From a virus: 64,000 nt of DNA. Shown piece after piece: positions 31,566 to 40,002 of the stretch (positions are counted from its first letter, which is position 1; each line of letters begins with the position of its first letter). Location: IMG/VR virus record IMGVR_UViG_3300035199_000659, positions 32,006 through 96,005 of that record, one strand, 5' to 3'. The notes beneath the pieces are model-generated. The model was not told where the DNA came from. It did not search any database and was given only the letters and a program-made list of their open reading frames with translations. Both the position numbers and the translations under genes were made by a program.

Positions 31566-32336
31566 TCATGGGCAGTGTTCTGTCCCGTAAAATTTACAAC
31601 CAAATCCCGACGTGCAGGATAATTTATTCTTAATATAGCGCTTTTTCTTAATATTGTATAGTGCTGTATTTAAGGTTTTTAGAGCGTTCTTAGTTTTCTG
31701 CGGGCCACTCGTCACCCGAAAGAATTCAACGCGATTCTTTTTTGCAGTTCTCTTAAGTAGTGCAAAATGCGTTTCTATGTGTTTTGGATCTACATCCATT
31801 TTCTGCGCAAAAAAGTGTTTATAAAGTGTTAACTGGTATGTTGTCATTTTATCCGAGCGGCGGCGGGCGTCCCAACCCCAAGAGCATGTTTTCCAGTCAA
31901 AAATGTGGATTTTATCATCCGGGGTTTTAACCACGGCATCAATATACCCCTTAAAGACATGTTCATCGTGCCCCTCAATCGGCTCATAAAGCGGCATTTC
32001 GACCGCAAGGACCTCATATTCTTCAAAATATTGGTCTAGGGCGCCTTGGATCTCTGGGATAAGCTGTCCCCCTTGGGTGCGCATGTCTTGTATAAGCTTC
32101 TCATCGATCGCAATGTCGTCATCTAACTCTTCAATACATTTTTCGAATTCTTGAATGAAATATTCTTCGTCTACTTCCTCTTGCAAAAGCTTCTTTTCGC
32201 AGACACTATGGACTGCTGTTCCAAAGGCCGTGTATGCGTTGCCCTTGAATCCGTCGATCTTGTCGACTCTTGTTAATTTGTGATAAAAAGCACAGAAAAC
32301 CCAATCTTTGAGTTCCGAGTATGATATATGTGCCAA
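31566..32336 (-). CDS. PD-(D/E)XK exonuclease, Cas4/AddB-like with Fe-S cysteines
   Basis: About 256 residues from a TTG at 32336, backed by AGGAGA eight bases upstream and a transcription start that lies inside the longer frame. Motifs: AHISYSELKDWVFC at the start, YTAFGTAVHSVCE, FKGYIDAVVK and HIFDWKTCS (the D and D/E-x-K catalytic core). Four cysteines (C15 and three in LSCTSGFGCKFYGTEHC) would hold a 4Fe-4S cluster as in Cas4 and AddB. Probable 5'-3' exonuclease for DNA recombination or repair, common in T4-like marine phages. Confidence 0.8.
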   Translation of the reverse strand: MAHISYSELKDWVFCAFYHKLTRVDKIDGFKGNAYTAFGTAVHSVCEKKLLQEEVDEEYFIQEFEKCIEELDDDIAIDEKLIQDMRTQGGQLIPEIQGALDQYFEEYEVLAVEMPLYEPIEGHDEHVFKGYIDAVVKTPDDKIHIFDWKTCSWGWDARRRSDKMTTYQLTLYKHFFAQKMDVDPKHIETHFALLKRTAKKNRVEFFRVTSGPQKTKNALKTLNTALYNIKKKRYIKNKLSCTSGFGCKFYGTEHCP

Positions 32337-33365: not shown

Positions 33366-34703
33366 TTATAATACTTTTGAAGCCAACGTTGCCAATTCCG
33401 ATCTTTCGCCCTTTTTAAAGGTTACGTGGCCCGAAATTGTGTGGCTTTTAAAATTTTCTACGGCATGGGCCAGACCGTTTGATGTTTCGTTGACATAGAC
33501 ATTGTCAATTTGTTCTACGTCGCCGGTCAATACAATCTTGGTATTCTCGCCTATTCTTGTAATTATAGTCTTAATCTCGTGCTTTGTCAAGTTCTGAGCT
33601 TCATCAATAACAATAAAGGCATTTGAGATGGACCGACCGCGGATATATGTCAGGGCTTCAATCTCAATTTTGCCCTTGTCCATATACATCTCTAAGGACG
33701 TCCTATCGCCCATGAGGAACTTCAAATTATCTTGGATGGGCATGAGCCATGGTAACATTTTTTCTTCCATTGTGCCGGGCAGGAAGCCTATGTCTCGGCC
33801 CATTGGCTGTACAGGTCTAGACACTATAAGGCGCGAATAGTGATTATTCTCTCCGTGAAGGCCAATCGTCTGCTGAAGACCTGCTGCGATGGCACATAAA
33901 GTTTTACCCGAGCCGGCTCGGCCGACTAAAGAGACTAATTTAATATTAGGATCCATCAGCATGTCAATTGCGAAGGCCTGCTCTTTGTTTCTAGAGTTAA
34001 TTTTCCAATCTGAAATTCGATCATAAATTATTCGCAGCAACGGGGTGTGGTGATTTACGAACCGTGCGATGCACGATTTTTTTGGATTTGAGTTTGATAT
34101 AAGAAGAAGGTATTGATTGGGATACCATTTTTCTTTAGTTTCATCGGCGCCGATATATAATTCTTCGCCCTCGTAAAATCTTTCAACAAACTGGTCATCC
34201 ACTAAGACTTCGGAGAATCCCTGAAATAACTCATCGGATGAGGTAACGGCTTTTTCCGACACATAGTCTTCAGCCATTATCCCAATTGAGTCACAGATAA
34301 CTCGCATGTTAATATCGCGGCTAACAACAATAGTTTTGCGGTTTGGGACCTCCATCTGAACGACTTTGCCAGTGGCAATAATCGCGTGGTCTGGCACCCT
34401 CATATCTAGATCGGGGGGGAATACAACATCCTTCAGAGCTTCATAGGACATCACTTTGAGAATACCTTTACCCTTGCTGATTCTGACGCCACGTTCCAAG
34501 CTTCCTTTTTGTCGAAGCTCATCTAAAGAGCGAATTATCTTGCGAGCATTGATGCCCACAGAATCTTGTCTTTTCTTGTGTTTGTCAATCTCTTCTAATA
34601 CTTTTAAAGGTAAAAATAAATCGTGATTATCAAACTTATATATTGCATCTGCATCTGTCAGGCATACACTTGTATCTAACAGATAGTTCTTTTTAATGGC
34701 CAT
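33366..34703 (-). CDS. phoH: PhoH-like ATPase with N-terminal PIN RNase domain
   Basis: 445 residues, the PhoH2 architecture. N-terminal ~150 residues: YLLDTSVCLTDADAIYKF (PIN active-site Asp), VSRDINMRV. C-terminal: SLVGRAGSGKTLCAIAAG (Walker A, about 258), VSRPVQPMGRDIGFLPG, AFIVIDEAQNL (Walker B) and TGDVEQID. In bacteria such proteins are RNA helicase/RNases. PhoH is a frequent gene in phages, whose benefit is unclear. The product stops 56 bases before the gene at 33310. Confidence 0.88.
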   Translation of the reverse strand: MAIKKNYLLDTSVCLTDADAIYKFDNHDLFLPLKVLEEIDKHKKRQDSVGINARKIIRSLDELRQKGSLERGVRISKGKGILKVMSYEALKDVVFPPDLDMRVPDHAIIATGKVVQMEVPNRKTIVVSRDINMRVICDSIGIMAEDYVSEKAVTSSDELFQGFSEVLVDDQFVERFYEGEELYIGADETKEKWYPNQYLLLISNSNPKKSCIARFVNHHTPLLRIIYDRISDWKINSRNKEQAFAIDMLMDPNIKLVSLVGRAGSGKTLCAIAAGLQQTIGLHGENNHYSRLIVSRPVQPMGRDIGFLPGTMEEKMLPWLMPIQDNLKFLMGDRTSLEMYMDKGKIEIEALTYIRGRSISNAFIVIDEAQNLTKHEIKTIITRIGENTKIVLTGDVEQIDNVYVNETSNGLAHAVENFKSHTISGHVTFKKGERSELATLASKVL

Positions 34704-35058: not shown

Positions 35059-35133
35059 TGGAGCGGGTGACTGGATTCGAACCAGCGACAACCACGTTGG
35101 CAACGTGGGACTCTACCACTGAGTTACACCCGC
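35059..35133 (-). tRNA. tRNA-Gly (GCC)
   Basis: Full cloverleaf on the minus strand: acceptor GCGGGTG/CACCCGC, anticodon stem CCACG/CGTGG with loop TTGCCAA giving anticodon GCC, T-arm GGTTCGAATCC, and encoded CCA at 35061-35059 after discriminator T. It serves GGC/GGU glycine codons. Located 7 bases before the barrel gene start. Confidence 0.92.
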
Positions 35134-35244: not shown

Positions 35245-35256
35245 ATCGTATATAGG

Positions 35257-35329
35257 CTGGGGCAACTGGATTCGAACCAATAACTTCCTGAGTAACAGTC
35301 AGGCGTTCTGCCAATTGAACTACACCCCA
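35257..35329 (-). tRNA. tRNA-Asn (GTT), first copy
   Basis: 73-base cloverleaf: acceptor TGGGGTG paired with TGCCCCA (two G-U pairs), anticodon stem CCTGA/TCAGG with loop CTGTTAC giving anticodon GTT, T-arm GGTTCGAATCC. The CCA is not encoded (CCT follows discriminator G), so host CCA-adding enzyme is needed. It differs in sequence from the second Asn tRNA at 35885-35961. Confidence 0.85.
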
Positions 35330-35884: not shown

Positions 35885-35961
35885 TGGCTCCCGCTCGCAG
35901 ACTCGAACTGCGGGCCCTCTGATTAACAGTCAGATGCTCTAACCAGCTGAGCTAAGCGGGA
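35885..35961 (-). tRNA. tRNA-Asn (GTT), second copy
   Basis: 77 bases with encoded CCA (35887-35885): acceptor TCCCGCT/AGCGGGA, D-arm TAGCTCAGCTGG, anticodon stem TCTGA/TCAGA with loop CTGTTAA (anticodon GTT), T-arm CAGTTCGAGTCTG. It resembles normal bacterial tRNA-Asn more than the copy at 35257. A consensus promoter lies 13-41 bases upstream. Confidence 0.92.
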
Positions 35962-39435: not shown

Positions 39436-39771
39436 TGGTGGAGACGGCGGGAGTCGAACCCGCGTCCAGAATAAGTCCAATTGTAGTCATTCACAAGCTT
39501 ATCAGTTTTTATATCCCCCAACTGAGCGGGTAGACGGCTATAATCTAAAGCTTACCGTCCTGTTGCCTTAAATGGTTTGATTTTTACAACTTGTCTGTTG
39601 TTTTGCTTAGATTGGAAAGAAGGCTCTAAGCGACCTCCCGATTAAGCCGCTAAGCGGACAGATTCGAAGTGTGTGTTGTTATTTGCAACTATTGTTTTTG
39701 AACGATTAAGGTTGTATCATACCTGCTTGCACTATTCCTTTTTGTTACTCTGTCGAAACCATTTCATCCCC
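39436..39771 (-). ncRNA. ssrA: Transfer-messenger RNA (tmRNA)
   Basis: Minus-strand RNA of 336 nt. The 5' end GGGGATG at 39771 pairs with 3' CGTCTCC (39446-39440), followed by A and encoded CCA (39438-39436). The TTCGACTCCCGC T-arm and the conserved 5' GAAATGGTTTCGACAG element are typical of one-piece bacterial tmRNA. The resume codon GCA at 39686 opens the tag reading frame. It rescues stalled ribosomes and tags their products with a degradation peptide. Phage-encoded tmRNA is uncommon. Confidence 0.93.
39642..39686 (-). other. tmRNA proteolysis-tag reading frame
   Basis: From resume codon GCA (39686-39684) to TAA (39644-39642): tag ANNNTHFESVRLAA, 14 residues. The terminal LAA is the signal read by ClpXP-type proteases. 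AGTT lies just before the resume codon. The end of the tag resembles host tmRNA tags (xLAA). Confidence 0.9.
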
Positions 39772-40002
39772 TTTTTTTGTTTTTCTTACCTTTTTGACAA
39801 TCACTCCAAGAGGCTCACCGGCCTTTCCATCCAGCCAAATTACAATCTCTTTGCGCGCTTTAATATCGCGTGATTTGCTTTTTGTAGCCTTAAGGTATGG
39901 AATCGCTTTTTTGGCTGCTTTGAGGGCCGCTGCCTCAGAAGAGTGTGAACTAATTAGCTCTCCCTGAATATAATGGCCATCCCACTTATACACCCTCCAC
40001 AT
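39745..40002 (-). CDS. Small basic-charged protein whose C-terminus overlaps tmRNA
   Basis: 85 residues. Opening MWRVYKWDGHYIQGELISSH, then AAALKAAKKAIPYLKATKSKSRD. The last ~9 codons are inside the first 27 bases of the tmRNA, so residues GDEMVSTE and the stop are dictated by conserved tmRNA sequence. Family not recognised. Co-transcription with tmRNA is likely. Confidence 0.5.
   Translation of the reverse strand: MWRVYKWDGHYIQGELISSHSSEAAALKAAKKAIPYLKATKSKSRDIKARKEIVIWLDGKAGEPLGVIVKKVRKTKKGDEMVSTE

Follow-up and report, generated by a model that had tools for sequence, protein, structure and literature searches.

We report a complete one-piece tmRNA gene (ssrA) in the window, a 64,000-nucleotide stretch (positions 32,006 to 96,005) of the IMG/VR virus record IMGVR_UViG_3300035199_000659, together with related phages in which the corresponding position is occupied either by a full tmRNA or by its tRNA-like domain alone. 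The locus of this phage family is better seen as one that sets host trans-translation, with most members supplying a full tmRNA and some a tag-less alanine-acceptor domain.

The window tmRNA and its genome setting

ARAGORN called the gene with the tag ANNNTHFESVRLAA followed by a stop codon, and the Rfam model RF00023 (gathering score 47 bits) matched it with identical ends along the whole molecule, model positions 1-374 of 374, as expected of a standard one-piece tmRNA. The preliminary description of this DNA had placed the gene and read its tag exactly, to which we add the strand, minus, and the covariance-model search that it had proposed bore out a complete tmRNA. Where it had called such genes rare in phage genomes, one census counted 402 tmRNA carriers among 18,146 phage genomes (~2%) by 2021 (PMC9004378). 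The features of the locus are as follows.

33366-34703, minus strand: phoH-like gene (PHROG 2765, E 8e-108), the conserved neighbour used for finding relatives
35059-35133: tRNA-Gly (ARAGORN, Rfam)
35255-35329, minus strand: tRNA-Asn(GTT) (ARAGORN, Rfam)
35885-35961: second tRNA-Asn(GTT) (ARAGORN, Rfam)
39436-39771, minus strand: one-piece tmRNA (ssrA), 336 nt (ARAGORN; Rfam RF00023, 121.3 bits, E 7.5e-47)
39436-39439, minus strand: discriminator A and CCA (sequence and script)
39440-39446, minus strand: acceptor stem 3' strand CGTCTCC, with U70 at 39442 (sequence and script)
39447-39463, minus strand: T arm GCGGG-TTCGACT-CCCGC (Rfam and script)
39642-39686, minus strand: tag reading frame ANNNTHFESVRLAA and TAA, with the resume codon GCA at 39684-39686 (ARAGORN, gene positions 86-130; synonymous variation in relatives)
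39750-39760, minus strand: GGTTTCGACAG, D-loop analogue (sequence; aligned in the Rfam match)
39765-39771, minus strand: acceptor stem 5' strand GGGGATG, with G3 at 39769 (sequence and script)
39745-40002, minus strand: 85-aa ORF MWRVYKWDGHYIQGE...MVSTE, sharing its final 27 nt with the 5' end of the tmRNA (most relatives have a homologue immediately upstream)

By sequence reading and script, the tRNA-like domain has 7/7 acceptor pairs, including the G3:U70 alanine identity pair, 5/5 T-stem pairs and an encoded CCA, and it lacks an anticodon arm. The GGTTTCGAC element is kept, and the GGTTTCGACAG D-loop analogue is presumably the SmpB-binding region of this domain. The resume codon GCA opens a tag frame that is conserved as protein, carries a hydrophobic -AA end (LAA in the window) and stops at TAA. 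Nested helices of the molecule have covariation support, and crossing helices, candidates for the pseudoknots PK1-PK4, such as CUAUC/GAUAG near the 3' end in relatives, were read by eye only. The permuted tmRNA model RF04321 also overlapped the gene at 49 bits and was treated as a cross-hit, as its acceptor strands form the two ends of the gene and are not joined by a loop as in the two-piece form. A promoter scan gave sites not in excess of those in shuffled sequence, and no terminator was found.

The source record is a 96,005-base viral contig that encodes a baseplate wedge protein, a primase, an SbcCD-like nuclease, the phoH-like gene, many sugar/glycan genes and three tRNAs, two of them tRNA-Asn. 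Its closest baseplate relatives are from Microcystis and Flavobacterium phages at ~30% identity, its structural proteins are only distantly related to those of isolates, and the sole match in a search for near-identical DNA among GenBank phages was 65 bp long and lay in a huge uncultured phage. The two tRNA-Asn(GTT) genes accompany, possibly by coincidence, a tag that opens on three Asn codons, and tRNA-Asn is frequent in relatives as well. Since the small upstream ORF overlaps the tmRNA 5' end, 5' processing would cut that mRNA and give a non-stop mRNA; a comparable effect of overlap has been noted for Carsonella smpB-ssrA (PMC4131195). The overlap is also 27 nt in five relatives (L009, L010, L021, L037 and L038) and 8 nt in many others. 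A search for SmpB, positive in 10 of 14 control genomes, found none in the window's record (which is incomplete) or in 44 related contigs, so the phage tmRNA would depend on SmpB, alanyl-tRNA synthetase (AlaRS), EF-Tu and protease of the host.

Conservation of gene and tag in relatives

PhoH was used to collect 80 related viral loci, and in most relatives that reach far enough upstream the tmRNA occupies a constant position, 4-7 kb upstream of phoH. A match above the Rfam cut-off was present in 36 of 45 whole records, one of the 36 being a mini form. No tmRNA was found in the available stretch of the close relatives L006, L026, L043 and L052, which indicates that the gene is dispensable. G3:U70 and complete pairing of both the acceptor stem (7/7) and the T stem (5/5) are retained in all 43 distinct full family tmRNAs across 10 acceptor variants, and RNAalifold on 30 members gave 58 pairs, 26 of them with two-sided changes that preserve the pair, counts that are lowered by the displacement of the acceptor in a few rows of the MAFFT alignment. 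Because it is conserved with compensatory changes across relatives, the window tmRNA is not a chance match.

Across 31 of the family's tags, all of the ANNN.[HNY]F[ED] type, codons 1-4 and 7-8 vary nearly only at third positions, and amino-acid change is confined to codons 5-6, beyond E/D at codon 8. Pairwise comparison of codons 1-8 gave 824 synonymous against 547 non-synonymous codon differences, the latter mostly at codons 5 and 6, and the final three codons of these tags have 12 spellings, all encoding [LVQ]AA. This pattern of codon variation supports a functional, translated tag that is selected as protein. In one relative (L020 5449-5794) the ARAGORN tag VQNKLVPVFANNNEHFDAVALAA is probably over-long, as the family pattern puts the resume codon at the GCA of ANNNEHFDAVALAA.

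With charging determinants, tag frame and internal helices all under selection in relatives, support of ribosome rescue, as the preliminary description had it, stands as the best reading, and we consider it probable that the window gene encodes a host-charged phage tmRNA performing trans-translation with a phage tag. Such a molecule would borrow the host alanyl-tRNA synthetase, EF-Tu and SmpB, enter, once charged with alanine, ribosomes stalled on broken mRNA during infection, take over the nascent chain and append ANNNTHFESVRLAA, whose LAA end should send the product to ClpXP-type proteolysis. For the window gene we infer transcription, charging and tagging in the infected cell, and a benefit to the phage. 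The absence of the gene from some close relatives and its overlap with the upstream ORF speak against this reading.

The conservation described here also bears on two other accounts. The gene could be a passenger copy of a host ssrA, recently picked up or left over from integration at ssrA, with no phage role; the 3' end of ssrA is the attP of many temperate phages, and the mycobacteriophages Validus and Milly show it beside integrases. The window gene, however, is complete, diverged, always in one place and kept across family members whose phoH falls to ~60% identity, selection acts on its tag and stems, and no integrase was seen among the scanned neighbours (a subset of ORFs). The conservation largely refutes this account, which we judge very unlikely. 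Alternatively, a dedicated phage tag could redirect the proteins that carry it, for example to a protease of the phage's choosing or away from host adaptors, in which case the unusual ANNN.HFE part would matter more than rescue. Its N-terminal half, ANNN.[HN]F[ED], is indeed kept at the amino-acid level across phages, but the C terminus is of the ordinary LAA type and a phage protease or adaptor was not identified, and we regard a dedicated tag as very unlikely.

The comparison of tags with those of bacteria, suggested in the preliminary description as a route to the host, was run and did not identify one. A single scan of bacterial and archaeal genomes for ANNN.[HN]F[ED]-type tags found three genomes, one of which had a real tmRNA, with the tag ANNNANFDVALAA, in a WOR-3 metagenome-assembled genome (MAG). 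This match does not identify the host. The MAG has two tmRNA matches above the cut-off (L086 2379-2755; G045:C1:1394619-1394967), of which one encodes the phage-like ANNNANFDVALAA and the other, at 156.6 bits, was not called by ARAGORN.

Tag-less mini-tmRNAs in the family and beyond

Whole-record searches turned up, in the relative G043/L073, an RF00023 match of 83 nt, and in four family loci the tmRNA slot holds the tRNA-like domain alone, ~82 nt in length and scoring 54-72 bits to RF00023 with ~300 model positions deleted. ARAGORN reported no mini in any of these four loci, which are listed below from the Rfam matches.

L070, 3958-4039: family mini-tmRNA
L071, 4724-4805: family mini-tmRNA
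L073, 5066-5148: family mini-tmRNA
L074, 1676-1758: family mini-tmRNA

The family minis read GGGGGUG...GGNUUCGAC...short hairpin...GGAC, T arm, CACCUCC, ACCA, a layout into which neither a tag nor pseudoknots fit. The combination of G3:U70, GGNTTCGAC and a T arm with no tag space is found in these four and in the wider set described below, and not in the window gene. Full (L066, L068, L072) and mini loci have homologous neighbours, namely two genes upstream, of 260-290 aa and ~115-120 aa, and several downstream, and in the PhoH tree all four mini carriers fall with the full carriers L065, L066 and L072 in one clade of ten members (support 100/99, with no branching resolution inside). The shared neighbours and single PhoH clade imply that this one locus switched form inside a narrow clade. 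A slot that can hold a full or a tag-less tmRNA offers a natural experiment on the use that phages make of trans-translation.

These minis lend themselves to a further account, in which the tmRNA serves mainly to sequester host SmpB (or AlaRS/EF-Tu) by competition and to dampen host trans-translation, tagging is incidental, and the minis of relatives are a stripped-down version of the same device. That relatives in the same 100/99 phoH clade carry the tRNA-like domain alone instead is consistent with it, as is the statement, in a passage of PMC4131195 citing Mao et al. 2009, that a DS6A-like molecule consisting of this domain only is a strong inhibitor of tmRNA in E. coli "whether or not chargeable", an effect that may come from SmpB titration. 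Set against this, the tag amino acids and internal helices of the full forms are under selection, which would be needless for a decoy, and we find it rather unlikely that the window tmRNA acts mainly in this way.

Mini-tmRNAs are found well beyond the family. IMG/VR was scanned with a pattern of a GGGG..G acceptor strand, TTCGAC and a T arm within 20-50 nt, and sites were filtered for at least 6/7 acceptor and at least 4/5 T-stem pairs. Among the matches listed, with the family's own sites added, at least 121 sites passed, all of them actually with 7/7 and 5/5 pairs; five other distinct sites among the matches listed failed, two of which resemble the same RNA with an indel. A second scan, restricted to GGGGCTG acceptors, matched 71 contigs, 30 of which were already among the first scan's listed matches; taking the latter as ~42% of the total (30/71), we estimate that ~285 contigs match the strict pattern. 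Both scans combined gave at least 162 sites, at least 114 of them distinct, in viral contigs (L109-L277), with a few window-family contigs counted twice in the 162. U70 is present in 162/162 listed sites; the pattern did not require it, and C70 would pass the filter.

In the first set, the 94 distinct minis among the matches listed have G3:U70 and a discriminator A in 94/94 cases. Their P2 stem, measured free of alignment, averages 5.8 bp against 2.4 bp with 3' strands swapped (500 shuffles, maximum 2.8). In a model-fitted alignment, which leans towards structure, 96.7% of cells pair against 66.6% when shuffled, two-sided changes occur in 641 cells against 202, and slid controls reach 44-57% pairing. 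Genes for phage portal, terminase, major head protein and head protease recur beside the minis, which marks the contigs as phage. For several minis (L260, L252 and others), a portal or major head protein gene follows after 36-202 nt, which places them in the structural gene block. Four ARAGORN "full tmRNA" calls at mini loci (L124, L158, L198 and L200) were treated as mis-calls given their implausible tags; for L124 and L158, at least, the call takes in the 3' end of the mini itself. Outside the family loci ARAGORN called minis only as these four implausible long forms, and mini-tmRNAs appear to be a common and overlooked class of small RNA.

A Blast search with one mini found cultured carriers, which were scored with a mini model. 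Those in Streptomyces phages are listed here.

Shaeky, L286 2491-2569: mini-tmRNA, 91.0 bits
LuckySocke, L284 2496-2573: mini-tmRNA, 80.8 bits
pSt2308, L288 1501-1578: mini-tmRNA, 78.8 bits
BRock, L285 2492-2569: mini-tmRNA, 69.6 bits
Alone3, L287 1487-1563: mini-tmRNA, 54.0 bits

All five sit within tRNA arrays with no annotated feature beneath the match, and three of them (LuckySocke, BRock and Alone3) show a change of pair 4:69 to U:A next to an intact G3:U70. A match to the mini query in GiJojo is annotated as a hypothetical protein. Mini-model scores were low, at 21-27 bits, for the Pseudomonas phages PA_L9 and SM1 and for S-CRM01 and LR756508, and Vibrio phage D239 is borderline at 41.6 bits, without TTCGAC. 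Validus (L235 2501-2532) and Milly (L236 2501-2530), both Weiservirinae, were rejected as minis: in each, the match is limited to the T arm and the 3' half of the acceptor, a stretch resembling a tmRNA 3' end right before a tyrosine integrase, and is read as a probable attP.

The invariance of G3:U70 and A73 in the distinct minis, and of U70 in all listed sites, suggests that the minis are probably charged. A pure sponge need not keep G3:U70, as C70 would pair better; the invariant pair thus suggests that natural minis are alanylated and act at the ribosome, and, by inference, argues against a pure SmpB sponge. Taken together, these patterns lead us to propose, with the chances of being right or wrong about equal, that phages widely encode tag-less, alanine-accepting, SmpB-binding mini-tmRNAs (~62-92 nt to the discriminator base), that these probably carry alanine and work on stalled ribosomes instead of serving as mere SmpB sponges, and that in the window's family the locus alternates between a full and a mini state. 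At the ribosome, the minis could capture or release the nascent chain without tagging it, or they could jam trans-translation. The invariant alanine identity pair makes the question of sponge or active acceptor directly testable in culture.

Comparison with known tmRNAs

The window tmRNA is one more phage tmRNA, an already known type of phage gene. The mycobacteriophage Bxz1 group and Wildcat, Bacillus phage G, and Streptomyces phages including Wofford and Yaboi are likewise tailed phages with a complete one-piece tmRNA and a tag ending in -AA; the window phage differs from them in its unrelated family, its tag ANNNTHFESVRLAA, the position of the gene, fixed throughout the family, and the existence of tag-less members. 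Melnitz and related phages (PMC9004378) are likewise environmental myophages with their own ssrA, but theirs is two-piece and permuted, whereas the window gene is one-piece, scoring 121 bits with RF00023 against 49 bits with the permuted model.

For the minis, the nearest precedent is mycobacteriophage DS6A, the only phage listed with a tmRNA reduced to the tRNA-like domain (PMC4131195, PMC11915505) in a literature searched mostly outside subscription papers. Its domain without tag or pseudoknots is like that of the four family minis and the at least 162 sites, a likeness drawn from its description. DS6A is a single genome, in contrast to the many phage groups with minis here, and in the window's family the mini occupies the slot of the full tmRNA. 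The tmRNAs without a coding sequence from jakobid mitochondria and Mallomonadaceae plastids (PMC3985003, PMC11915505) are organellar, whereas the minis described here are phage-borne. As far as we have searched, the alternation of full and mini forms within one phage family and the breadth of phage minis, both of which lie outside the window, are new to the literature.
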